A stretch of 64,000 nt of DNA. Origin: Pseudomonadota bacterium. GTDB taxonomy: Bacteria; Desulfobacterota; Binatia; Binatales; Binataceae. The DNA lies in contig JAJPIF010000019.1 of NCBI GenBank assembly GCA_021324885.1, positions 85,630 through 149,629 on the forward strand, given 5' to 3'. The notes beneath the pieces were generated by a model. It was not told the origin of the DNA and ran no database searches. It was given only the letters and a program-made list of their open reading frames with translations. The number at the start of each line of letters is the position of its first letter. The first letter of the stretch is position 1. Shown here piece after piece: positions 7,340 through 18,976 of the stretch. The position numbers were made by a program, and so were the translations under genes.

Positions 7340-8836
7340 TTATGATCGCAGCGCAGTGGCAGACTGCGTCGGGGCCGGAGCCGGTGAGGGAATTCTCGTC
7401 GGCGTGAATGTCGGCAGCGGCGTTTCGGCAGGAGCGGGTGAGGGTTTCTCCGACGATGTCGGTGTCGCAGTCCGCGTGGGCGAGGGCGTCGACGTCGGCG
7501 TCGGTATGGGTGAGGGCGTCGACGTCGGCGTCGGTATGGGTGAGGGCGTCGACGTCGGCGAGGCAGTGGCAGAGGGTGTCGGTGAAGGCGTGGGTAAAGT
7601 CCATTTGACCGGCGTTCGGACCCAGATCAGAGCGGCACTATGTCCGGCGCGCCTTTGCGTCATATCGCCCGCGGAAACGAAGCGTCCTCCCGCCGGGTCG
7701 TAAAGTTCCGCGCTGGCTATCGGACGGTACTTCTGGTCCCAGCCGCCGGCGATCAGCACCTTGCCGTTGGGCACTAAAATTGCGCAATGACCGTAGCGGC
7801 CGATCCTCATCGGCGGGCCCTCAATGAATGTGTTGGCCTCGGGGACGAAAATCTCCGAAGAATTATCTTCGCGTCCACCCGCTATCAGAACGCGTCCATC
7901 GAGCAGACGCGTGGCGCTGTGACCGGCGCGGCTGTGGATCATATCCGGGCCGGGGACGAATTTTCCGGTCTTCGGAATATAAAATTCGGTGCTGCGAATG
8001 GCCTCGCTGCGCGCCGACGGACTGCCACCCGCAATCAGCACGCGCCCGTCGTCAAGCAACGTTGCGCTGTCCAGCACGCGGTTGGTCTTCATCGATCCAG
8101 TGGTGATGAACCTGCCGGTGGCGGGGTCGTAAAGCTCGGCCTGATTGTCGCCGCCTCCAGCCACCAGCACGCGCCCGTCGGGCAGTATCGTGGCAGTTTG
8201 GCCATAGCGGCTTGATTGCATGTCGGGGCCTGGTAAGAACTTGTTTTGCTTTGGATCGTAGATTTCAGTCGACGCGCTGCCTCCGCCGATCACCAGCACT
8301 CTGCCGTCGCGCAACACGGTCGCGGTGGGATCGTCTCGCGCCGTTGCCATGTCCATGGTGGCGGTAAACCGGCCTGTGATCGGATTGAATAGCTCAGCCG
8401 ATTTCAGAATCCAGGTCATTGCAGGCCCCGGGAAGACCGTCAATGGCACCATCACCGTGTTTACGCCCCCGACGATCAGAACGCGGCCATCCTTCAGCGC
8501 TACCGCTGCCTGCCGGTCGCGATGCGCCGTCATCGGGGCAATCGGCAGAAAATGGCCGGAGGCCACGTCGTAAACTTCCGCGCTGTCCAACACCGCCGGA
8601 ATGCTTCCTGACGGCATGGCGGTCTCGCCGGTACCGCCTGCAATCAGAACCATCGCGGTTAGGGACGCGGTCGGCGTTGCACTGGGAGCTGGTGAACGGG
8701 TGACAGCCGGAGCCGGTCGATGGTGGCGGCGGCGATGCGCGGCTTGTGCGGTGATAGCGGTCGCGCAAATTGCCAGGATGGCCAGCGCCGCCGCCAGCCG
8801 CCGCGTCAGGTCAGGAAACATTGGCCGGTCAGGCAT
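7340..8836 (-). CDS. Secreted Kelch-repeat beta-propeller protein with Pro/Thr/Ser stalk
   Basis: About 498 aa. The N-terminus has a signal peptide ([21 protein letters not shown]). Roughly seven Kelch-type blades follow, each containing a VLIAGG-like strand and a later AELYDP/AEVYD motif; this predicts a six- or seven-bladed propeller. The last 100 residues are a Pro/Thr/Ser-rich stalk with repeated [10 protein letters not shown] units. It is probably exported to the periplasm or cell surface as a binding module; no catalytic signature is seen. ATG at 8836 is chosen because GGAG lies six to nine bases upstream and because it overlaps the MFS stop by 8 nt, suggesting translational coupling. 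The ORF could begin at 8965 or at ATG 8821. The substrate is unknown. Confidence 0.8.
7481..7560. repeat. 30-bp in-frame tandem repeat in the Kelch protein stalk
   Basis: Two perfect 30-bp copies (7501-7530 and 7531-7560) are preceded by a further 20-bp partial copy with one mismatch or less. Each unit encodes ten residues of the Thr/Pro/Ser stalk, so unit gain or loss keeps the frame and changes only stalk length. Confidence 0.9.
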
Positions 8837-10211
8837 TCCTGCTCCGATTGGAAGTCGTCGATCTGTGCAGCTTTTCCCATTCCTCCTCCCGCGCGGCCAC
8901 TGCCAGCGGCAATCCGCGGGTCTCGTCAATGAACAGGCCGAAAAACAAGGCGCTGGGGAATCCAAGCAGCGCGAAGTTCTTGATCACGTTGCTCAGCCCG
9001 CCCATCGGCCCGATCAATGCCGCAATCAGAACCTGGGCGAGGACCGAAAAGGCCGCGCCGGTAATCATTTGCCATCCCACCATCGTGGTCCGCAACGCGG
9101 CGGGCAGCAGCTCGGTGGCGGCGGAATTGGCTCCTACCGTCATGATGGAAGACGCTATTTTGAACCAACAATAACTAATCAAAAGCCACAAGAATGGGTG
9201 ACTGAACAGTCGCGGCGCGCCATGGTAAAAGGCCAGCGCCCCGAGCCATCCAATGCCTCCGAAATAGGCAACGGTCGGTACGCGGCCAAAGCGCTCCGAG
9301 GTCCATGCTCCGGCGGGAAACCCGAGCATCCCCACCGCCATCCCGATTACTACCAGCATGCTGGCGCGGGCCGGAAACAGGCCAATCACCGAGACGGCCT
9401 CGAAGTAGAGCCATCCGTTAACCGCAGTGCCAGCCATCGTGTCCAACGCCGCGCAGACCAGAAGCGTCAGCGAGCGGCGCCGGTATAGCGGATGGAAAAT
9501 GTCATAAAACGAGGTTTGTGTATTGTCATCGGTCGAGGTGCGGGTCCATGCCGCCGGCTCGGGCAGCATGCGCGAAATCGGCGCGATGAGGCTGATTCCC
9601 GCTACCGAAGGCAGCAGCATCCATCGCCAGGAAACATTGAGATGGATCAGAACCGGGATAAGGGGATAGGGAAGAATTCCGCCCGCTGCACTGGCAAAAG
9701 CGGCAACTGCCTGCCCCCGTGAACGCCACGTGACCGGCAATTCTTCTGCGAGCAGCACGATGGCAGACGATACCGAGCCACCCAACAAAGCCGAAATCAG
9801 GATTTCGAAGGCTGCGAATAGCGCTGGACGCGTCGAGAGCGCCGCGCCGGCGCTGAAGATCGGGACCAGGCTCAGGCTGGCCAGAATGATTTTGCGCCGC
9901 CCAACCCGGTCGGCCATCCTGGCCAGCAGCAGTGATCCGATGGCTGAGGTAGACATCCAGGCAAACAGGCGTGCCAGGCTGGCCTGATCCAGGTGAAAGC
10001 TCGCGGCTATCCAAGGTGAGGCCACCCCTGCAATCGACAGGGCGTAACCCTGGTACGTCTGCAGCAGCGCGATAGCGATAAGGATGCCTTTGGCCTGGGC
10101 AAAGCCCGCGGCGGGTTCGACGTGGTCCGCATCTGGCGACGCAGCGGTCGGACGGGGTGAGCCATGGTCCTGGGCTGAGTTTCTGGGATTTGTCTCGGCC
10201 CCGTCAATCAT
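8829..10211 (-). CDS. MFS transporter (sugar-porter/metabolite:H+ symporter type)
   Basis: About 460 aa with twelve predicted hydrophobic segments. The loop between helices 2 and 3 reads [13 protein letters not shown], the MFS G-x-x-x-D-R-x-G-R-R signature, and a weaker equivalent ([10 protein letters not shown]) occurs in the second half, as in the MHS/SP families. The ORF runs to 10367, but the first 50 or so residues are low complexity; ATG at 10211 starts a short hydrophilic leader before the first helix and is the preferred though not decisive start. It is divergent from the ABC exporter at 10382 and overlaps the Kelch gene by 8 nt, so the two are probably co-transcribed. The substrate cannot be deduced. 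Confidence 0.85.
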
Positions 10212-10381
10212 TGTTGACCGATTTGGAATTGCGCCTGACCGATATGAGGCATCGAAACGACGGCCCAAAGCAGGCAGATGCAGCATTGGCGAGGCATTTG
10301 CGGCGGCATAGCGCTTGCGACTTGCCGTGCAAACGGGTTGGAACCCCGCCTTTTTCCAGCGGCCCAAGGGACCGCCCCACT

Positions 10382-12259
10382 ATGAAAGAGAAAGAGTTAG
10401 CCAAGCGACCGCTCTTGAGGTTTGCTTCTTACCTTAAACCGAATATCGGATACGTAATTGCGGCGGCGGTTATGGGGGTCGGGAAATTCACGCTTCCGCT
10501 GATGTTTCCGCTGGCCTTCAGGTATATCGTCGACGTTCTTTTAAGCTCCCATCCGCACTTGGACGGTGTCAATTCCGTAATCGACCGCTGGAGTGCGGCG
10601 GCGTCCTCGATGCTGGGGATGGGTATTTCGCCGCACGACAAGCTCGCCGCTCTCAGTATCGCGCTACTGGCTGTTTATCTACTCCAGGCGGTGGCCAGCT
10701 ATTACCGGAATTACTGGGCCGGTATAGCCGGCAATCGTCTGATTGTTGGGCTTCAGTGCCGTCTTTTTTCACATCTCCAGCGGCTTCCCCATTCATTTTT
10801 TGACCGCAATCCGGCGGGCGCAATCGTCTCGCGCGTGCTGAACGACGTTACCCAGGCCAACGAACTGGTCAATTCCGCCCTGATCGACGTCTGGATGGAC
10901 GTCATCTCGCTGGGCCTGGTGGTCCTGGCACTGTTCGCGATGGACTGGCGTCTGGCGCTGGTGGCCCTTGCGATCGCGCCCTTGTGGGTCACTTTCATGC
11001 GATTTTTCTCGCCGCGAATCAAGGCCGTCAGCCATCGGATGCAGGAGACGGTGGAGGAGATTAACGCCGAGGTCCACGAGCGCGTGGTGGGCGCAGCCAC
11101 AATCAAGTCTTTTGGACGCGAGGAAGACGAGATTCGCAATTTCAACGCGCGCGCCGATCAATGGTACGCCCGTTCGATCCAGAAGGTTCGCCTGGCCGCC
11201 GCGCAGGAGATGCTCATTCAGATTTTGACGCGCAGCGCCCCGATGGTCGTGGTTTGGGTGGGCGCCTCGATGATCATGCGCGGCACCCTGACGCTGGGTA
11301 CTCTGCTTGCCTTCTTCACCTACCTGGGATTTCTCTATCTTCCGCTTGAACGGCTTGCCCAACTCTCCGTGGTCCTGTCCGCTTCGCTGGCCGCGATCGA
11401 GCGTATCTTCAATTTCCTCGACCTCAAGCCGGAAATCGCCGATCATCCGCTGGCCCGACCCTTTGCGGTGCGTCGTCCGACGATCGAGTTCGAGCAGGTC
11501 AAGTTTGCCTATCAGCCGCGCGCCGGTGCCGCGCCGCGTGAGGTATTGCGCGGAATCAACCTGCACATCCCGGCGGGAATGCGCGTGGCTCTGGTTGGCA
11601 AATCGGGAGCGGGCAAAACCACTCTGGCCAATCTGATCCCGCGTTTTTACGACGCCACCGCCGGACGCGTCCTGATCGACGGAAAAGACGTCAAACACAT
11701 GACGCTGAAGTCGCTGCGCTCCAACATCAGCATCGTGACCCAGGAACCGCTGCTCTTCAGTTCCAGCATCGCCCACAATCTGCTCTATGCGCGCTCCGAC
11801 GCGTGCGAGGAGATGCTCTGGCAATCGCTGGAGTTCGCCAATCTGGAACAATTCGTCCGTCAACTGCCCAACGGCCTGCAGACTGTGATCGGCGAGCGGG
11901 GCGTCAAGCTCTCCGCGGGACAGCGGCAGCGGCTGGCGCTGGCGCGGGCTTTTCTAAAGGATTCGAAAATCGTGATCCTCGACGAGTCCACCTCGTCGGT
12001 GGATTCCGAGGCGGAGAACCTGATCCAGGAAGCGATCGAACGGCTGATGGAGGGGCGTACGGTGTTGACCATCGCCCATCGGCTGCGCAGCGCCACCACT
12101 GCAGATCTGGTGGTGGTGCTGGACCAGGGAGTCATCGCCGAAGTCGGCCCGCACTCCGAGTTGCTGCGCCGCGGCGGCCTTTACGCGCGCCTGCTCAACG
12201 AACAGACGCGGGGACTGATGGCCGGGAGGACCGCCGGGGGCCTGCGCCGGGAAGCCTGA
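10382..12259 (+). CDS. ABC exporter, MsbA/multidrug type (fused TMD-NBD)
   Basis: A half-transporter of 625 aa that should act as a homodimer to export lipids or drugs across the inner membrane. Residues 1-320 form the six-helix type-I exporter domain, including the coupling-helix segment (ERVVGAATIKSFGREEDEI). The nucleotide-binding domain has Walker A GKSGAGKTT (about 409), the Q-loop TQEPLLFSSSI, the signature LSAGQRQRLALARA (about 511), Walker B IVILDEST and the H-loop TIAHRL. The open frame starts earlier at 10157, but MKEKELAKRPLLRF at 10382 sits at the domain edge, with AAGGGA some 10-15 nt upstream. It is monocistronic by position and divergent from the MFS gene. It may be an MsbA orthologue for lipid A, but no LPS genes are adjacent to confirm this. 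Confidence 0.92.
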   Translation: MKEKELAKRPLLRFASYLKPNIGYVIAAAVMGVGKFTLPLMFPLAFRYIVDVLLSSHPHLDGVNSVIDRWSAAASSMLGMGISPHDKLAALSIALLAVYLLQAVASYYRNYWAGIAGNRLIVGLQCRLFSHLQRLPHSFFDRNPAGAIVSRVLNDVTQANELVNSALIDVWMDVISLGLVVLALFAMDWRLALVALAIAPLWVTFMRFFSPRIKAVSHRMQETVEEINAEVHERVVGAATIKSFGREEDEIRNFNARADQWYARSIQKVRLAAAQEMLIQILTRSAPMVVVWVGASMIMRGTLTLGTLLAFFTYLGFLYLPLERLAQLSVVLSASLAAIERIFNFLDLKPEIADHPLARPFAVRRPTIEFEQVKFAYQPRAGAAPREVLRGINLHIPAGMRVALVGKSGAGKTTLANLIPRFYDATAGRVLIDGKDVKHMTLKSLRSNISIVTQEPLLFSSSIAHNLLYARSDACEEMLWQSLEFANLEQFVRQLPNGLQTVIGERGVKLSAGQRQRLALARAFLKDSKIVILDESTSSVDSEAENLIQEAIERLMEGRTVLTIAHRLRSATTADLVVVLDQGVIAEVGPHSELLRRGGLYARLLNEQTRGLMAGRTAGGLRREA

Positions 12260-12453
12260 TTCCTCGAACCATCTGATCGCACCGCACCGGCTGCCGATCG
12301 GATGGCCTCACCTCTGTGTCCGATCGCACCCGGCTTACGCCGCGGCGCCAATCCGCGACGCCGGGATGCCAGCCGTCGACCGCGGGTCCTGGCCGCGTCC
12401 CGGCGCGCCTGTCATCGCCGCGAAATTTTCTCTGACGGCCCCCGCAGGAGCCC

Positions 12454-12482
12454 TTGACAGACGGGCTGCAGGCAACTATACA
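12454..12482 (+). promoter_or_regulatory. Strong sigma70-type promoter
   Basis: TTGACA (12454-12459) and TATACA (12477-12482) are separated by exactly 17 bp, the best -35/-10 match seen in the window. Transcription would start near 12489 and run toward the small ORF at 12556 and the response regulator at 12986. Confidence 0.75.
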
Positions 12483-12555
12483 AAAGGTAAATAAACTTGC
12501 GCGCTTGTTGATTTGGTTTTGGACAAGCGACACTGGCCATCCGGATGATGCGATA

Positions 12556-12831
12556 ATGCTCCAAATCAAGCAACACGAAACTGGCCGGGGACCGAATGCT
12601 TGTCCGCTTTGTGCTTTCACGCAGTGGACCTCCAGGGACTGGCTTTGGGAGTTCGTGATTGTCGTCATCTTCGCATTTGCCCTGCTGGCCGCCCTGAGTG
12701 TGGCACTTCCTTACTACGCGACCTCATCCACGGCCCCGCGCTGGAATCGGACGGCGGTTCTGACCGATTCGGGCTTATTCGGGAGTGCGCGGGCAAACAG
12801 GTTTAATGGAGAACCGCGAATTGACGTTTGA
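12556..12831 (+). CDS. Small putative membrane protein with CPLC motif
   Basis: A 91-aa ORF that I do not recognise. It has a hydrophilic N-terminus with a Cys-Pro-Leu-Cys pair (a possible metal or redox motif), then a single hydrophobic segment of about 22 residues (FVIVVIFAFALLAALSVALP), then a polar tail. This predicts a single-pass inner-membrane protein. Support for it being real is the consensus promoter 74 nt upstream and the coherent membrane segment. No good Shine-Dalgarno precedes ATG 12556. A 9-bp inverted repeat (TTGATTTGG at 12508-12516, CCAAATCAA at 12561-12569) brackets the start codon and could hide it in a hairpin. The longer ORF reading starts inside the promoter and is unlikely. 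The transcript could instead be a leader or ncRNA. Confidence 0.38.
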   Translation: MLQIKQHETGRGPNACPLCAFTQWTSRDWLWEFVIVVIFAFALLAALSVALPYYATSSTAPRWNRTAVLTDSGLFGSARANRFNGEPRIDV

Positions 12832-12985
12832 GGATACCGCTGCGGCTGCAGGTTTTCGGCGGCAGCGGCGCGGCCTGTGAACGATGGGCCGCCTGACAAA
12901 TCTACAGGCTGCAGCCAAACGGTTCGCCTCCCGGTTCGAACTTTTTGCGACCCGGTCTGGTTTGGACCTGGCGGTTTATCCGGCT

Positions 12986-13381
12986 ATGGAAGAGCATGGT
13001 GAACCATCGTGCGTCCTGCTGGTCGAAGACGACCAGCCCAGCCGCGAAGCTTTGGCCCGTATTTTGGCGGTTGAGGGCTACTGCGTGGACACGGCGGAGA
13101 ATGGAGCGCAAGCGTTTGAACGTCTTCATCACCCCCCACGTCCATTCGTGGTTCTTCTCGATTTGGGTCTGCCGGTGGTTAGCGGGCAGGACTTCATAAG
13201 CAGGCAGAAGCAGGAGCCGGAGATCGCTGATATACCGGTGGTGGTGATCACCGCGGCATTCGAACCGTGGGTGCCGGACGCGGTGGCGGTTCTGCCCAAG
13301 CCGCTCGATTTACCTGCCCTCAAGCATCTATTGTCCGTACTCCGCGCCCGCCAGAGCTCCCGCTGTATTCCGGCGGCCTAG
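12986..13381 (+). CDS. Single-domain response regulator (CheY-like receiver)
   Basis: A receiver-only protein of about 131 aa with no output domain. It shows the acidic pair in LLVEDDQPSRE, the phospho-acceptor Asp in VVLLDLGLPVVSG (about residue 59), the conserved Thr in VVVITAA and the Lys in LPKPLD (about 105). Such proteins act as phosphate shuttles or protein-binding switches. The frame is open from 12884; ATG 12986 starts just before the beta-1 strand and is preferred, but the earlier ATG 12884 adds 34 non-conserved residues and cannot be excluded. It lies downstream of the small membrane ORF and may share its promoter. No partner kinase is adjacent; the hybrid kinase at 27.5 kb is one possible but unproven partner. 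Confidence 0.88.
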   Translation: MEEHGEPSCVLLVEDDQPSREALARILAVEGYCVDTAENGAQAFERLHHPPRPFVVLLDLGLPVVSGQDFISRQKQEPEIADIPVVVITAAFEPWVPDAVAVLPKPLDLPALKHLLSVLRARQSSRCIPAA

Positions 13382-13593
13382 GACCAGGGTGCGCAAACGA
13401 TGGACCTGCAAGCCATCGTGTGAAGCTCAATACCCTGGTGTCCGGGCCCCAAGGCCATAAGCTGTCCGCGGACTCGACTACCGCCTTCCAGCGAGCTTGA
13501 ATCGATAGTCTCACTTGGCGGGCGCGCCGCTTTTCAGTGGATCGACCGCCGTCTCTTTCAACAATGGCCTGCCTTCTTATATTTTTCCATCAT

Positions 13594-13674
13594 GCGAGAG
13601 TGGCGGAACGGCAGACGCGCCGGACTTAGGATCCGGTGCCGCAAGGCGTGGGGGTTCAAGTCCCCCCTCTCGCA
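13594..13674 (+). tRNA. tRNA-Leu (anticodon UAG)
   Basis: The acceptor arms GCGAGAG (13594-13600) and CTCTCGC (13667-13673) pair perfectly, with discriminator A. The anticodon loop CTTAGGA is flanked by CCGGA/TCCGG and reads TAG. A long variable arm (TGCC-GCAA-GGCG) marks a class II tRNA, and the T arm is GGGGG-TTCAAGT-CCCCC. The 3' CCA is not encoded. Confidence 0.96.
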
Positions 13675-13745
13675 TTCCTGAAAGCTCGCCAAACGGTTCC
13701 AGGCGTCGCGCGCTCCGATCCATAAAAGATCCCCTGTCGAAACCC

Positions 13746-13774
13746 TTGACAAGGCTGTCCGATGCATATATCTA
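13746..13774 (+). promoter_or_regulatory. Promoter of the Rrf2 regulator gene
   Basis: A perfect TTGACA (13746-13751) is followed after 17 bp by TATCTA (13769-13774). The start codon at 13791 is only 10-15 nt beyond the expected transcription start, so the leader is very short. The shared motif TGGCCAATAG (13778-13787) covers the initiation region, a position suited to autorepression. Confidence 0.6.
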
Positions 13775-13777
13775 AGC

Positions 13778-13787
13778 TGGCCAATAG
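13778..13787 (+). promoter_or_regulatory. Candidate Rrf2 operator, copy 1
   Basis: TGGCCAATAG lies between the -10 box and the start codon of the Rrf2 gene. The same ten bases recur at 14257-14266, ahead of the YezD-like gene. Function as an operator is inferred from position and recurrence. Confidence 0.4.
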
Positions 13788-13790
13788 AGT

Positions 13791-14249
13791 ATGTTGAGAA
13801 ACAAGACGAAATATGCTCTTAAAGCGCTCCAGGTGTTGGCCAAGGAGTATGGGCAGGGACCGGTCCTCATCTCTGAAATCGCGCGACGGGAGCGAATCTC
13901 GCCCAAATTTCTCGAATTGATCCTGCTCGAACTCAAAAACCAGGGCGTGGTGCAAAGCAAGAAGGGCAAAGGTGGCGGATACTTCCTGGCCCGAGCGCCG
14001 CAGACGGTAAGCGTCGGCCAGATTGTCCGTATGATGGAAGGTCCTTTGGCTCCGCTGCCCTGCGTCAGCAAGACCTCCTACATGCGCTGCGCGGAATGCC
14101 GCGATGAGCGGACCTGCGGCATCCGGATTGTCATGAAGGACGTGCGCGACGCGACCGCGCGCATCCTCGATTCAACCACCCTGGCCGACGTGCTCCAGCG
14201 GGTTGCGTCGGTGGTCCAGGGTAAGGAAGGCCTGAGCTACGCGATCTGA
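13791..14249 (+). CDS. Rrf2-family transcriptional regulator with cysteine cluster
   Basis: A 152-aa winged-helix regulator. The N-terminal helix-turn-helix (KYALKALQVLAKEYG, ISEIARRERISPKFLELIL) and the wing KGKGGGYFLAR are typical of Rrf2 proteins. Four cysteines follow in the pattern C-x8-C-x2-C-x5-C (PCVSKTSYMRCAECRDERTC), close to the region where IscR, NsrR and RirA bind an Fe-S cluster, so redox, iron or sulfur sensing is plausible; family members such as CymR sense cysteine status through a partner enzyme instead. It has its own promoter just downstream of tRNA-Leu and precedes a YezD-like gene and a porin. Probably it represses itself and the downstream genes through the shared motif; this is inference. 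Confidence 0.92.
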   Translation: MLRNKTKYALKALQVLAKEYGQGPVLISEIARRERISPKFLELILLELKNQGVVQSKKGKGGGYFLARAPQTVSVGQIVRMMEGPLAPLPCVSKTSYMRCAECRDERTCGIRIVMKDVRDATARILDSTTLADVLQRVASVVQGKEGLSYAI

Positions 14250-14256
14250 TTTTTTT

Positions 14257-14266
14257 TGGCCAATAG
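14257..14266 (+). promoter_or_regulatory. Candidate Rrf2 operator, copy 2
   Basis: TGGCCAATAG is repeated here, within the palindrome TTGGCCAA (14256-14263), 42 nt upstream of the YezD-like start codon. It follows a T-run just after the Rrf2 stop codon. Regulation by the adjacent Rrf2 protein is inferred. Confidence 0.4.
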
Positions 14267-14307
14267 TCTAGTAAACGAATAGGGTAAAAGATATAGACAG
14301 GAGGACC

Positions 14308-14511
14308 ATGACCCTGGCCAACTTCAGGAATGGGGAAAAGCCGATGCCTGACCAATGCGGGCTGGATCAGGTGATTGCCGAAATCGTGCGTTCCCTCCGC
14401 AACCTGCGTTTCGGTTCGATTGAGATCACGGTCCACGATTCGCGCGTGGTGCAAATCGAGCGCAAGGAGAAGGTGCGCTTCGCGCCCGTCGCACCGCCCA
14501 GACGCGACTGA
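14308..14511 (+). CDS. YezD-like (DUF2292) small protein
   Basis: A 67-aa protein. The core I-x-x-SLRNLRFGSIEITVHD followed by RVVQIERKEKVRF matches the YezD/DUF2292 family, whose members are usually 50-70 aa and are often found beside sulfur-assimilation genes; their biochemical role is unknown. An excellent Shine-Dalgarno AGGAGG lies just before ATG 14308, which decides the start over the internal ATG. It lies between the Rrf2 gene and the porin on the same strand, 58 nt after the former. Context suggests a sulfur- or anion-uptake regulon, but this is inference. Confidence 0.8.
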   Translation: MTLANFRNGEKPMPDQCGLDQVIAEIVRSLRNLRFGSIEITVHDSRVVQIERKEKVRFAPVAPPRRD

Positions 14512-14616
14512 GCGGGGCGTCCACCGTTCACACACGGAGACCAGAGCAAAACGTGATGAGGGATCTGACCGGATCACCGGAAGCATTCCCGTTCGCCAGC
14601 GATCGGAGAGGAACGG

Positions 14617-16068
14617 ATGCAACACCGGTGGTTACGGATTTACCTGGCGCTGAGCGGGGCGCTTCTGCTATGGACGGCCCCGGCGCCGGCGCAGTCGCGC
14701 GACGAACAGTTGCAGCGGCTGCAACAGCAGGTCAACGAACTGGAGCGCCAGATCAAGGCGCTCCGGCAGGCCGAACAGCGCAAGGAACGCAATTTCGAAG
14801 CGGTGGATCGGCGCGTCAAGGCGATCGGCCGCCAGGTCGAAGGCCAGCAAAGCCGCCAGCGGCAAATGTCCGGCAAATTGCCGAAGGTGAGCTACAACTA
14901 CAAGGATAAGGGCGGTCTCACGGTCGAGTCGGCGGACGGCGCCAACCGCTTTACGGTGGGGGGCTGGATACAGGAGGAGGGGCGTTACTACACCACTCAG
15001 TCACCGGGTGCCCCGAGCACGTTTCTGATCCGGCGCGCCCGTCCCTATTTGGAAGGCACGGTCGCCAACTATTACGATTTCCGTCTGATGACCGATTTCG
15101 GGCAAGGCAATGCCGTTTTGGAAGATGCCTTTGCCGATATTCATTACTTTGCATCGGCGCGTGTGCGGGTGGGCCAGTTCAAGGAGCCGGTAGGCTTGGA
15201 GCGTCTTCAGGACGACCGCTGGAATGAATTCCCTGAACGCGGTCTGGCCAGCCAACTGGTGCCCGACCGCGACATCGGCTTTGATCTGCACGGCAAGCTG
15301 TGGCATGAGGTGGTCGAGTACAGTTTGGGGATATTCAACGGCGCGACCGACAATGTGGCGATGACAAATATCGATGGCAACAATGCCAAGGACTTCGCCG
15401 GCCGCATTTTTCTCCGTCCATTCGCTGGTTATTCAAACGAGGCGCTGCAGGGACTTGGTGTTGGCTTCGCAGGCACTTACGGTAGCTCGGAGAAGGGTAT
15501 CGCGCTGGATACTTTCAAGACGGCGGCGCAGAACACATTCTTCAAGTACAACTCGAATGCGTTTGCGGCGGGAGGGCGCTTGCGTTATTCGCCGCAATTT
15601 TACTACTACGGCGGACCCTTCGGAGTGCTGGGAGAGTTTGTTTACAACTCCCAAAAGGTCGGTGCCAGCAGCACGATCAACGGGGTGACAAAATATAATA
15701 CCAGGGAGATCACCAGCTATGCCTGGAACCTCACTGTCGATTATGTCCTGACCGGAGAGAACGCTTCTTATGACGGAATCGTTCCGCGGCACAATTTCGA
15801 TCCGCGTTTTGACTCCTGGGGTGCATTCGATGTGGCGGCGCGCGTGAATCAACTGGTGGTGGATCGCGATGTTTTCAGCGGCGGCTTCGCCAACCCGCAA
15901 ACCTCGGCGGACTGGGCGCTGGAATGGGGAATCGGCATCAACTGGTGGCTTGCGCGCCAGTTCAGGCTACAGACCGCGTACGTGAGGACCACCTTCCATG
16001 AAGGCGCGCGCCATGGCAATCGCAAACCGGAAAGCGCTATCCTGCAGCAGCTGCAAATCCTCTTCTGA
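14617..16068 (+). CDS. OprO/OprP-type outer-membrane porin
   Basis: A 483-aa precursor. Residues 1-25 form a signal peptide ending in APAQS. A coiled coil of about 60 residues follows (LQRLQQQVNELERQIKALR), typical of the trimer-forming N-terminus of OprO/P-family channels. The rest is a beta-barrel with alternating aromatic strands, including FLIRRARPYLEGTV, VRVGQFKEPVGLERL and a terminal Phe (ILQQLQILF), the outer-membrane assembly signal. Family members pass phosphate, polyphosphate or other anions. A GGAGAGG ribosome site precedes ATG 14617. The gene is 105 nt after the YezD-like gene and in the same direction, so an Rrf2-controlled anion (perhaps sulfate or sulfonate) porin is plausible. 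Confidence 0.9.
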   Translation: MQHRWLRIYLALSGALLLWTAPAPAQSRDEQLQRLQQQVNELERQIKALRQAEQRKERNFEAVDRRVKAIGRQVEGQQSRQRQMSGKLPKVSYNYKDKGGLTVESADGANRFTVGGWIQEEGRYYTTQSPGAPSTFLIRRARPYLEGTVANYYDFRLMTDFGQGNAVLEDAFADIHYFASARVRVGQFKEPVGLERLQDDRWNEFPERGLASQLVPDRDIGFDLHGKLWHEVVEYSLGIFNGATDNVAMTNIDGNNAKDFAGRIFLRPFAGYSNEALQGLGVGFAGTYGSSEKGIALDTFKTAAQNTFFKYNSNAFAAGGRLRYSPQFYYYGGPFGVLGEFVYNSQKVGASSTINGVTKYNTREITSYAWNLTVDYVLTGENASYDGIVPRHNFDPRFDSWGAFDVAARVNQLVVDRDVFSGGFANPQTSADWALEWGIGINWWLARQFRLQTAYVRTTFHEGARHGNRKPESAILQQLQILF

Positions 16069-16189
16069 GCCTGCTGGCGCCGTTGATGTTTACTGCAACC
16101 ATGCCGACTCTGGGGACGTTGCTGCGCCAGCCGGGCAGGCATTTTAACAAGGGGCACCACGCGCTTTCCTGACCGGCAGCAGCGCCTTC

Positions 16190-17788
16190 CTACTCTTCCG
16201 CGATTTCCTGGACTTTTGGAATGCCTTTTTTGGGCAGCAGAACGATCAGCGGCATCGCGATCACGAACAGGAAGCACATTATGAGATAGACGTCGTTGTA
16301 GGCCATCATCGTGGCTTGCGAGTTGATCATGTTGTTGACCATCGAGAGCGCGCCCGTCCGCGGAGCGAGACTTGCGCCATGTCTGGCAAGCTCGGTGCGG
16401 AAACCGGCCGCAGCCTGGACGAAGCTGGTATTCAAGCTGTCGATATTCGCAATCAGCGCCGCGCGATGGGATTGGATGCGCCGCGCCACCACGGTCGCCA
16501 GCATCGCGTAGGCGATATTGCCCGACACCCGCCGGCTGAGCGCGTACAGGCTGGAAGCCTGGGTCATGTAGCGCGGCGGCATCGTGCTGAGCGAGATGGT
16601 GCTCATCACTACCATCGAGCACGACATGCCCACCCCGGCCAGCATCAGCCATGGCACGAAATTCCAGAAGCCCGCGTTGAGCGAAAGATGGCCCAAATGC
16701 CAGTACGCGATCGTGAACAACACCAGCGAGGTGAAAACTATCAGCCGCGGACTGACGTAGTTATATATGCGGCCGACGATCGGCATCATCGCCATCATGG
16801 CGAGGGAGCGCGGGATCATGACCAGACCGGCCTGGAAGGCAGGATATCCGAACAGCCCTTCGACCAGATTGGGCAAAATGAAGCTCGAACCGAACACCGC
16901 GAAGCTGACCATCGAGCCGTACGTCGATCCCACGGCCAGACCCTTGTTCCTGAGCAGCCTGAAATTGATTACCGGTTCGGGGGAGAGGATCTCCCAGACG
17001 ATCAGGGTGACCAGCGCGGCGGCCGCCACGATGCTGCCGGTGACGATCAGATGCGAGGCAAACCAGTCCACCTCCTGTCCGCGCTCAAGCACGACCTGCA
17101 GTACGGCCAGGCCGACCGTGAGCAGTCCGATTCCCGCCCAGTCGATACGCTCCAGGCCCCGCGGCAGATAAGGCGGGTCCTGGACGAAGGTGCTGACCAT
17201 GAGAAAGCCGGCGATGCAAAAGGGGACGTTGATGTAGAAAATCCATGGCCAGCCGAAGTCGTCGATGATCAAGCCGCCCACCGCCGGGCCCACCGCAGGC
17301 GCCAGAATAACGCCCATCGTGTACAGGGCCATCGACATTGCCTGCTCTTCGGGCGGGAACTTCTCGCGCACGATCGCCTGCGACATCGGCATCAGGCTGC
17401 CGCCCCCGATCCCTTGCATGACCCGAAAGCAGATCATCTGTGTGAGGGTGCGTGAAGCTCCCGCCAGCACCGACCCGGTGATGAAGATCAGCATCGAGGC
17501 GAGGTACAGACGTTTGCGGCCGAACAGTTTGGCCCACCAGGCGGACATCGTGATTTGGATGATCTCGGCGATGCTGTAGGCGGTAGAGACCCAGGTGATG
17601 GTCAGCAGGTCGGTGCCAAAAGTGCCCATCATGTGCGGCATCGCGACGTTGACCACGGTCGCGTCCATCACGGAAAGAAAGGAGCCCAACAGCACCGAGG
17701 CCGCGACGATCCATTTGCCCGCTTCCACCCCCTGCACCAGGGTGTCGAGCTTTTTGTCCGTGACCGCGGCGCTCGTAGCCATCGCCAT
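16190..17788 (-). CDS. MFS drug efflux transporter, EmrB/QacA (DHA2) type
   Basis: About 532 aa with fourteen predicted membrane helices. Helix 1 contains SVMDATVVNVAMPHM, the DHA2 motif with its conserved Asp; the helix 2-3 loop is AKLFGRKRLYL; helix 5 carries the antiporter motif GVILAPAVGPAVGGLI. It should exchange protons for hydrophobic drugs at the inner membrane. The frame is open from 17890, but MAMATSAAVTDKK (17788 or 17782) gives the normal cytoplasmic leader. EmrB proteins usually work with an EmrA adaptor and a TolC-like channel; no emrA is adjacent, so partners would have to be elsewhere. It is convergent with the porin. Confidence 0.92.
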   Translation of the reverse strand: MAMATSAAVTDKKLDTLVQGVEAGKWIVAASVLLGSFLSVMDATVVNVAMPHMMGTFGTDLLTITWVSTAYSIAEIIQITMSAWWAKLFGRKRLYLASMLIFITGSVLAGASRTLTQMICFRVMQGIGGGSLMPMSQAIVREKFPPEEQAMSMALYTMGVILAPAVGPAVGGLIIDDFGWPWIFYINVPFCIAGFLMVSTFVQDPPYLPRGLERIDWAGIGLLTVGLAVLQVVLERGQEVDWFASHLIVTGSIVAAAALVTLIVWEILSPEPVINFRLLRNKGLAVGSTYGSMVSFAVFGSSFILPNLVEGLFGYPAFQAGLVMIPRSLAMMAMMPIVGRIYNYVSPRLIVFTSLVLFTIAYWHLGHLSLNAGFWNFVPWLMLAGVGMSCSMVVMSTISLSTMPPRYMTQASSLYALSRRVSGNIAYAMLATVVARRIQSHRAALIANIDSLNTSFVQAAAGFRTELARHGASLAPRTGALSMVNNMINSQATMMAYNDVYLIMCFLFVIAMPLIVLLPKKGIPKVQEIAEE

Positions 17789-17998
17789 GATTTGTGACAG
17801 CCTGTGGGCGATCTGGCAATCGGCGAGTCCCGCCTGGTGATGAGCGCCAACTTGACCTTCCCACTGCTTTGAGTATAGAAATCCCCACAATTGGATAATC
17901 GTGAATCAAAACGCGGGCTTAAAATCGGGGCGTTGGTGGCTCCGGTGGCCCAGGTAAGGCGCAAGAGGATTCGCCGTAATTCTTCGGGGAGGTCGATG

Positions 17999-18976
17999 AT
18001 GAGGCCGAGATCATACATCCTTGTTTTGCTTGCTCTGGCGTTAGGATTGGGGGGATGCGGCAGCAGCGGCGGCGGTGGTCCAATCACTCCGCCAGCTCCG
18101 ACGCTCGCCTACGTTGCCAACCGCGACGCCGGCAGTATTGTGGGTTTTATGCTCACGGCGAACGGCAACGTCGCGCCGGCGGTGAATATCAGCGGCGGCA
18201 ACACGCAGCTTAGCACTCCCGTTGCTGTGGCAGTTGATTCCTCGGGACGTATTTATGCCGCCAATGACGCCGCCACGTCGGTTTTGATTTTTGCTTCCGG
18301 CGCCAACGGCAACGTCGCGCCCATCGGGGTTCTGGGCGGCTCCAACACCCAGCTTACGGGAGTTGAAGGTATCGCAATCGATCACGACGGCTTCATCTAT
18401 GTTTCCAACTTCAACAGCAACTCGATCGTGGTTTTCAATCCCGGAGCTGCCGGCAATCCCAGTCCGACAAGGTTGATTGCCGGTCTGCTGACGACTTTGA
18501 ATGAACCCGTGGCGATGGCGTTTGATTCGAACAACAACCTTTATGTCGGCCAGCATGCGACCAACTCGCCGTTGCTCGAATTTGCGGCGGGTTCCAGCGG
18601 CAATGTTCCACCAATTGCCGCGCTTAATGGGCAGAGCTTTTTTCAATCGGTGGCCGATGGCCTCGCGCTTGACTCGGCCAATCGTATCATCGTTGGGAAT
18701 TATTGTTCGCCGGGCGGGGTCGCGATCTACGCTGCCGGCGCGAGCGGCAACGCTTCACCGGTGCAGGTGATCAAAGGACCGAATACGGCGACCGGATGCG
18801 TGGGCGGTCTGGCCGTCGATTCCTCCAACAACATCTACGTCGCGAACATTACCGGCACGGGATCCGATTCGCTCTCGATGTTTCCCTCCAGCGCCACCGG
18901 CAACGTGGCACCGTCGCGCGAGATCACCGGGTCGAACACGACGCTGAACACGCCCTTCAGCGTTGCGATTCACTGA
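17999..18976 (+). CDS. NHL-like beta-propeller lipoprotein
   Basis: About 325 aa. A lipoprotein signal peptide ends in LALGLGGC, followed by a Gly/Ser linker, so the protein should be membrane-anchored and face the periplasm or outside. The remainder is six or so repeats of about 45-50 residues, each with PVAVAVDSSGRIYAAN-like and ANGNVAPxxxIxGxNT-like strands, predicting a beta-propeller of NHL/SMP-30 type. GGGGAGG (17986-17992) is six bases from the second of two adjacent ATGs, favouring 17999. No catalytic residues were recognised. It is divergent from the EmrB-type gene. It resembles in design, but not in detail, the stalked propellers at 7.3 kb and 40.8 kb. Confidence 0.82.
   Translation: MRPRSYILVLLALALGLGGCGSSGGGGPITPPAPTLAYVANRDAGSIVGFMLTANGNVAPAVNISGGNTQLSTPVAVAVDSSGRIYAANDAATSVLIFASGANGNVAPIGVLGGSNTQLTGVEGIAIDHDGFIYVSNFNSNSIVVFNPGAAGNPSPTRLIAGLLTTLNEPVAMAFDSNNNLYVGQHATNSPLLEFAAGSSGNVPPIAALNGQSFFQSVADGLALDSANRIIVGNYCSPGGVAIYAAGASGNASPVQVIKGPNTATGCVGGLAVDSSNNIYVANITGTGSDSLSMFPSSATGNVAPSREITGSNTTLNTPFSVAIH

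Follow-up and report, generated by a model that had tools for sequence, protein, structure and literature searches.

Several described systems come close to the locus analysed here, in which an rrf2 gene is followed by genes for a DUF2292 (YezD) protein and a Porin_O_P outer-membrane porin on contig JAJPIF010000019.1 of a Binataceae bacterium (a stretch of 64,000 nucleotides, called the window below). CymR, the cysteine regulator of Bacillus and Staphylococcus, has the same fold and helix-turn-helix as the Rrf2 protein of the window, shares its sulfur theme and is of the repressor kind. However, CymR lacks the four-cysteine connector of the window protein, which scores only 82.5 bits against the CymR equivalog model NF047409 (cut-off 195), and the genes found here encode an outer-membrane porin and a DUF2292 protein. 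IscR is similar in its type 1 operator, a 25-bp palindrome over the core promoter, in autoregulation (predicted here) and in having cysteines in the same connector, yet differs in the spacing of these cysteines, in the operator core at two positions per arm and in its neighbour genes; the IscR model TIGR02010 gives the window protein 71.1 bits, below its cut-off of 207.55. The oscA-sbp unit of Pseudomonas corrugata, which acts in sulfur starvation and chromate resistance, is controlled by CysB. OscA is clustered there with a sulfate ABC transporter; the part of the source at hand names no Rrf2 protein (PMC2996968), and the window DUF2292 protein lies below the OscA cut-off. OprP and OprO belong to the same Porin_O_P family as the window porin but are distant from it, and in relatives the porin stands in a sulfate-importer context. 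Large uncharacterised clusters have been reported within the Rrf2 family (PMC9218516, in the part at hand), and one existing annotation, as annotation only, already connects sulfate assimilation with an Rrf2 protein (PMC8557817, likewise in part). A search of the open-access literature (titles, abstracts and some passages) found no study of a four-cysteine Rrf2 protein from a sulfur locus, which is weak evidence that there is none.

Based on sequence comparison, we consider it quite probable that an Rrf2 repressor of the CymR/IscR kind, itself autoregulated, governs the locus as an operon for sulfur limitation. Under sulfur sufficiency, an Rrf2 dimer would sit on two 25-bp palindromes, one in the leader of rrf2 and one in that of the DUF2292 gene, and keep RNA polymerase off; under limitation for sulfur (cysteine or Fe-S), it would let go of both. 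On release, the OscA-like DUF2292 protein and the anion porin would be made, and the entry of sulfate, or of a related sulfur anion, would increase. In relatives, the same row of genes runs on into a sulfate ABC importer; in this host, a SulP-type permease encoded elsewhere would be the likely inner-membrane partner of the porin. The position of the operators is what suggests repression, and the neighbour genes are what suggest sulfur as the signal. We also infer that sulfate is the cargo of the porin and that the DUF2292 and porin genes share one transcript.

The element that the two leaders appear to share is the 25-bp palindrome, with the consensus TTAGTCTATTAAATTAATAGACTAA; it is also seen next to related Rrf2 genes from several phyla. 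Its palindromic matrix was seeded from one relative's site and fitted on the leaders upstream and downstream of rrf2 in the loci of the 80 best homologues. A window-free version, from which the window was left out from the first step, draws on 73 sites, so that the consensus holds no window data. Over all 64,000 positions, this window-free matrix ranks operator 2, in the DUF2292 leader, first at 21.3 bits and operator 1, in the rrf2 leader, second at 7.7 bits, with the next place at 6.6 (Table 1). The highest score in 60 simulated 64-kb windows was 13.9 bits, below operator 2, and an earlier fit that started from a matrix including the window put the same two places on top. As a predicted member of the pattern, operator 2 is secure. 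Operator 1 is a weak candidate on its own score and convinces mainly because it is placed in the leader where relatives have theirs.

An earlier note on this DNA had proposed that the Rrf2 protein acts on common sites, one near the rrf2 promoter and one ahead of the DUF2292 gene, with the decamer TGGCCAATAG as the shared leader motif. Common sites are borne out, as one conserved palindrome, the predicted operator, is found in both leaders. The decamer was also reported correctly: it is exact at 13778-13787 and 14257-14266, and these are the only two copies in the whole 64 kb. At least two matches arose in 1 of 100 shuffles, a post hoc figure given that the decamer was picked after two copies were seen, and a repeat finder returned it as one of ten families that have two copies each in that stretch. 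Relatives, however, do not keep it. Each of the 12 related loci checked holds 0 copies, a single copy occurs in 822,363 bases of 80 Rrf2 loci, and the two window copies are 16 bp apart in register relative to the conserved palindrome. The decamer is the wrong unit, because relatives keep the 25-bp palindrome instead. Non-conservation and the register shift lead us to reject it as an operator, and despite its exact presence in both leaders we give almost no credence to the idea that it is itself the binding site. The biology of the earlier note therefore seems largely right in direction, and its motif wrong.

A scan of 13380-16300 for sigma-70 promoters gave none above threshold, so promoter elements were called by eye and by comparison with relatives. 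A TTGACA element starts 22 bp before operator 1, which would therefore cover the -10 region and reach the ATG. Among 40 operator-bearing upstream leaders, 25 have TTGACA (with at most one mismatch) starting 17-33 bp before the operator, where 3.1 would be expected, and these boxes are why we place the operators over the core promoter. Downstream operators are often preceded by a T tract: six or more T lie within 22 bp on the 5' side in 17 of 31 loci (expected, 1.15). In the window, a -35 element could consist of the end of the T tract plus TTGnnn, and a -10 element could include the right arm of the palindrome, in which case operator 2 would overlap a promoter as well.

For comparison across relatives, we used a sample of 81 loci, made up of the window and the 80 Rrf2 loci of the best homologues (40 from Bacteroidota and 40 others, by record title). 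In a hold-out, each locus was scored by a matrix refitted without that locus and without relatives more than 80% identical to it, at P ≤0.0067. At least one leader carries the operator in 51 of the 81 loci, namely the window, 30 of the 40 non-Bacteroidota and 20 of the 40 Bacteroidota. Upstream leaders account for 34 of 80 and downstream leaders for 31 of 81, with about 0.5 expected for each. A search model, R1, was built on 38 of the 65 sites of the earlier matrix fit, the stronger ones and none from the window. It matched in four of ten related genomes and gave no match in the other six. In G121 and G063 the match belongs to the rrf2 locus, in G025 it falls within a sulfur cluster that lies about 2.4 kb downstream of the Rrf2 gene, and in G149 (C6) its surroundings look unrelated. 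R1 is insensitive, having missed both matrix-positive sites at the rrf2 locus of G149 and that of G098, and its blanks are therefore no evidence of absence; with such misses, R1 shows neither a wider regulon nor the absence of one.

The sulfur theme, which the earlier note had already raised, is upheld by the genes that follow in relatives. The order rrf2-DUF2292-Porin_O_P recurs in 4 of the 80 loci (L003, L007, L010, L027), these four being metagenome-assembled. In relatives, the row can continue into Sbp-CysT-CysW-CysA. In a genome of the same family (G149, locus L129), it reads rrf2, DUF2292, Porin_O_P, Sbp, CysT, CysW and sulfate ATPase, with both operators; L003 has the same row, and in both loci the four importer proteins score above their NCBIfam cut-offs (TIGR00971, TIGR02139, TIGR02140, TIGR00968). 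Sbp, CysT or CysW lies on the fetched stretch in 21 of the 80 loci, all among the 40 non-Bacteroidota. Cultured bacteria that have this kind of Rrf2 next to sulfur genes include Geomonas sp. Red32 (L016) and Novispirillum itersonii ATCC 12639 (L044). When Sbp, CysT, CysW, DUF2292 and Porin_O_P are taken together, at least one is found within 1.5 kb in 23 of 80 loci, compared to 0 of 22 other Rrf2 loci (P 0.003). Across 198 genomes of the phylum, a close Rrf2 (at least 156 bits; the next score is 115) occurs in 8, DUF2292 in 13 and both in 7 (Fisher P 6e-9, uncorrected for kinship). The genes after the close Rrf2 in G025 (L134) are one of the sulfite-reductase type together with cysH, cysD and cysN, and operators are present in L134 as well as in L131 and L133. 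Some Bacteroidota have the operator before a gene for a permease that combines Na_sulph_symp and TrkA_C domains, identified by Pfam in L072 and by eye in L050 and L056. An idea that did not hold up is that the porin is controlled via the DUF2292/YezD protein: in 5 of the 80 loci (L012, L014, L037, L042, L071), a Porin_O_P gene comes after rrf2 with no DUF2292, which leaves DUF2292 unsupported as a go-between. A 595-aa open reading frame after DUF2292 in L002 had no Pfam match and was left out of the porin count. Separately, L132 (1229-3696, genome G081) has in a row an Rrf2 gene, DUF2292 and a Cons_hypoth698 membrane protein, which we take to be YeiH-like; the Rrf2 protein there keeps only three of the four cysteines.

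The regulator itself was modelled as a monomer with a pLDDT of 89.8 and has the winged-helix fold of the family, matching CymR, IscR, NsrR and RsrR. In this model, the four cysteines lie between a helix that ends at residue 83 and a long helix that starts at 110. IscR is reported to hold its ligands in the same connector region (PMC9218516, in the part at hand). All 81 close Rrf2 sequences have the four cysteine columns and fit the group pattern C-x8-C-x2-C-x4/5-C, and the peptide patterns with which homologues were found did not include these cysteines. Of the eight phylum genomes with a close Rrf2, six keep the strict pattern, G098 has C-x7 and G081 is one cysteine short. The alignment behind the profile search, the structure model and the 198-genome Rrf2 search (A2) holds 35 of the 81 sequences, with L053 left out. 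By record titles, the four-cysteine group spans Binataceae, Omnitrophota, Geobacteraceae, Acidobacteria, Alphaproteobacteria, Myxococcota, Verrucomicrobia and Bacteroidota. Given that the cysteines sit in the connector that holds the metal ligands of IscR, their likeliest role by analogy and in the model would be to bind an Fe-S cluster or zinc, to which we give about an even chance within the repressor model.

The cysteines could instead be structural or redox thiols in a CymR-like protein with no cofactor, which would form a complex with CysK and in this way sense the supply of cysteine. Among solved structures, CymR (2y75, TM 0.89 by target) is the best fold match of the Rrf2 model; in the profile search, only T. 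potens IscR (4cic) ranks above it, and CymR of B. subtilis is reported to work with CysK (PMC2940859, in the part at hand). The cysK gene does follow the close Rrf2 in G063, G098 and G027 (loci L131, L133 and L135; TIGR01139 above cut-off), but it also neighbours Rrf2 genes without the four cysteines, in 7 of 22 control loci. Moreover, the CymR alignment has a gap where the cysteine segment lies, the equivalog score falls far short, and the presence of four cysteine columns in 81 of 81 sequences favours a direct role for them. We regard sensing through CysK without a cofactor as unlikely, though it deserves to be kept in mind.

A number of observations weigh against the reading of the locus as a sulfur-limitation operon under its own Rrf2 repressor. 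Operator 1 has a left arm that is one base off, and 12 of the 60 simulated windows reach 7.7 bits somewhere (P is 0.010 within its own leader). In the hold-out, 30 of the 81 loci had no operator at P ≤0.0067 in either leader. Among 22 other Rrf2 genes of the same phylum without the four cysteines, 5 of 44 leaders match where 0.3 would be expected (the strand of L119 was misread), so this type of operator is not private to the four-cysteine group. With R1, operator 2 is the only match at E ≤10 in the window's own genome, 150 of 223 first-pass candidates having been scored. Assimilation genes within 1.5 kb are rarer here than at the other Rrf2 loci (9 of 80 vs 10 of 22, P 0.0009), all sulfur genes together show no difference (31 of 80 vs 10 of 22), and any sulfur gene sought is found in only 5 of the 40 Bacteroidota loci. 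In several Bacteroidota, the operator precedes a gene for a 1-Cys peroxiredoxin instead. Finally, a model search of the host genome did not find Sbp, which makes the case for sulfate as the porin cargo in this host indirect.

The peroxiredoxin genes stand by Rrf2 and operator in L034, by Pfam, and by eye in L039, L041, L054, L066, L078, L080 and L081, a hint that the regulon may extend to thiol or redox functions. They would also suit an Fe-S, iron or redox regulator (of the IscR, RirA or NsrR kind) whose regulon includes sulfur genes as just one part. The operator is 25 bp long, like the IscR type 1 motif ATASYYGACTRWWWYAGTCRRSTAT (PMC3899308, in the part at hand), with which its consensus agrees at 19 of 25 positions. 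Such a regulator nevertheless seems improbable to us: the IscR model score is far below its cut-off, the cysteine pattern differs from the C-x5-C-x5-C-x2-H given for IscR in the part of the source at hand (PMC9218516), and inspection by eye of the listed neighbourhoods, where no model search for isc/suf was made, revealed no gene of either kind.

The host genome (4.53 Mb in 30 contigs, 96% complete) has one DUF2292, one Porin_O_P and one SulP permease. Its sole PAPS_reduct protein is of the CysH type, so there is no CysD, and no CysT scores above cut-off. The sulfate ABC importer may have been lost, may never have been gained, or could lie in the missing few percent of the assembly. Since the regulator, DUF2292 and the porin are kept together with the operators but without the importer, a function of the pair that is independent of the importer is favoured. 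Elsewhere in the genome (G000:C20, about 229-232 kb; L150: 7169-10171), the CysH-type gene lies with a gene for a NirA/Sir-like reductase; divergent from these two is a second Rrf2 gene, whose CymR/IscR-like product has C-x8-C-x5-C and may control sulfate reduction in this host.

The missing Sbp also raises the question of a phosphate or general anion porin operon, in which the sulfur link would be inherited context. The family name of the porin, Phosphate-selective porin O and P, points this way, as do genomes in which DUF2292 occurs near Porin_O_P together with Pst-like genes (L138, by eye) or an HTH-PBP_like regulator (L139). Porin_O_P, however, lies between Rrf2 and Sbp in L003, L007, L012, L027, L037, L042, L071 and L129, and we think it quite improbable that the operon serves phosphate or anions in general. 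As an observation in its own right, DUF2292 is found near Porin_O_P without a close Rrf2 in four loci (L138, L139, L137 and L140, in genomes G197, G061, G092 and G174). The Pst-like genes of L138 comprise a PBP_like_2 binding protein and ABC genes, the regulator of L139 is accompanied by an ABC ATPase, L137 has a CysW-like gene and L140 has CysT- and Sbp-like genes, the last two by eye. The place of DUF2292 may be in oxyanion limitation more broadly.

Table 1. Positions of the genes, predicted operators and promoter-related features of the rrf2 locus in the window.
Feature	Position	Strand	Remarks
TTGACA, -35 element of the rrf2 promoter	13746..13751	+	read by eye; starts 22 bp before operator 1
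Operator 1 (ATATCTAAGCTGGCCAATAGAGTAT)	13768..13792		weak, predicted; over rrf2 -10 region and start codon; 7.7 bits
TGGCCAATAG, copy 1	13778..13787	+	positions 11-20 of operator 1
rrf2	13791..14249	+	152-aa Rrf2-family regulator, CymR/IscR kind
Codons of Cys91, Cys100, Cys103, Cys109	14061..14117	+	C-x8-C-x2-C-x5-C
T8 tract 5' of operator 2	14250..14257	+	directly after the rrf2 stop
TTGGCC, weak -35-like hexamer	14256..14261	+	putative; 17 bp before ATAGGG (14279-14284)
TGGCCAATAG, copy 2	14257..14266	+	only positions 1-4 of operator 2, plus 6 bases outside
Operator 2 (ATAGTCTAGTAAACGAATAGGGTAA)	14263..14287		strong, predicted; DUF2292 leader; 21.3 bits
DUF2292/YezD, OscA-like protein	14308..14511	+	67 aa; PF10055
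Porin_O_P outer-membrane porin	14617..16068	+	483 aa; PF07396

The three genes, their coordinates and their common direction on the forward strand had been given correctly before, as matches to PF02082, PF10055 and PF07396 attest. The Rrf2 protein belongs to its superfamily with 126.8 bits against PF02082 (cut-off 30, E 7.6e-37) and 117.4 bits against TIGR00738, above the cut-off of 73.3. Its two best named matches are 79% identical to it, in a Candidatus Binataceae bacterium, and 76% identical, in a 'Deltaproteobacteria bacterium'. The DUF2292 protein is a member of PF10055 (63 bits, cut-off 22, E 1.9e-17), and its sole NCBIfam match is NF033785, sulfur_OscA, the 'sulfur starvation response protein', at 59.9 bits (E 1.8e-16), below the cut-off of 85. 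Its structure model is poor overall (pLDDT 76.2, pTM 0.52), and a search of solved structures gave no convincing relative (best E 0.34). The porin is a member of PF07396 (69.3 bits, cut-off 20.9, E 4.6e-19) and matches Porin O in the PDB distantly, at E 1.2e-6. Upstream of the rrf2 promoter, a tRNA-Leu ends at 13675; an Rfam scan of 10000-18000 at E ≤1 returned this tRNA alone and no RNA element in the leaders. Farther away, at 7340-8965 on the reverse strand, the window has a long open reading frame with repeated DGRVLIAGG-like units (Kelch-like by eye) and a Pro/Thr/Ser-rich tail with TPSP-type repeats.

It is tempting to go one step further and speculate that these proteins form a widespread class of Rrf2 repressors that sense sulfur directly, by a metal or Fe-S centre on the four cysteines of one subunit, bind the operator TTAGTCTATTAAATTAATAGACTAA and fill the role of CysB or CymR-CysK, with the porin and DUF2292 as a sulfate-scavenging set. 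We hold this wider proposal tentatively, as plausible but somewhat short of probable. What the comparisons point to is a conserved locus for the control of sulfur acquisition, which its own cysteine pattern and operator would set apart from CymR and IscR. To our knowledge, the switching of sulfate uptake has been little studied outside model Proteobacteria and Firmicutes. Here, the regulator, the operator and the targets can all be read from sequence, and regulons could then be predicted for groups without cultured members. The small protein DUF2292/YezD, whose function is unknown, would gain a testable place in sulfur or oxyanion limitation, and, if the proposal is true, there would be a second kind of Rrf2-family sulfur regulator beside CymR.

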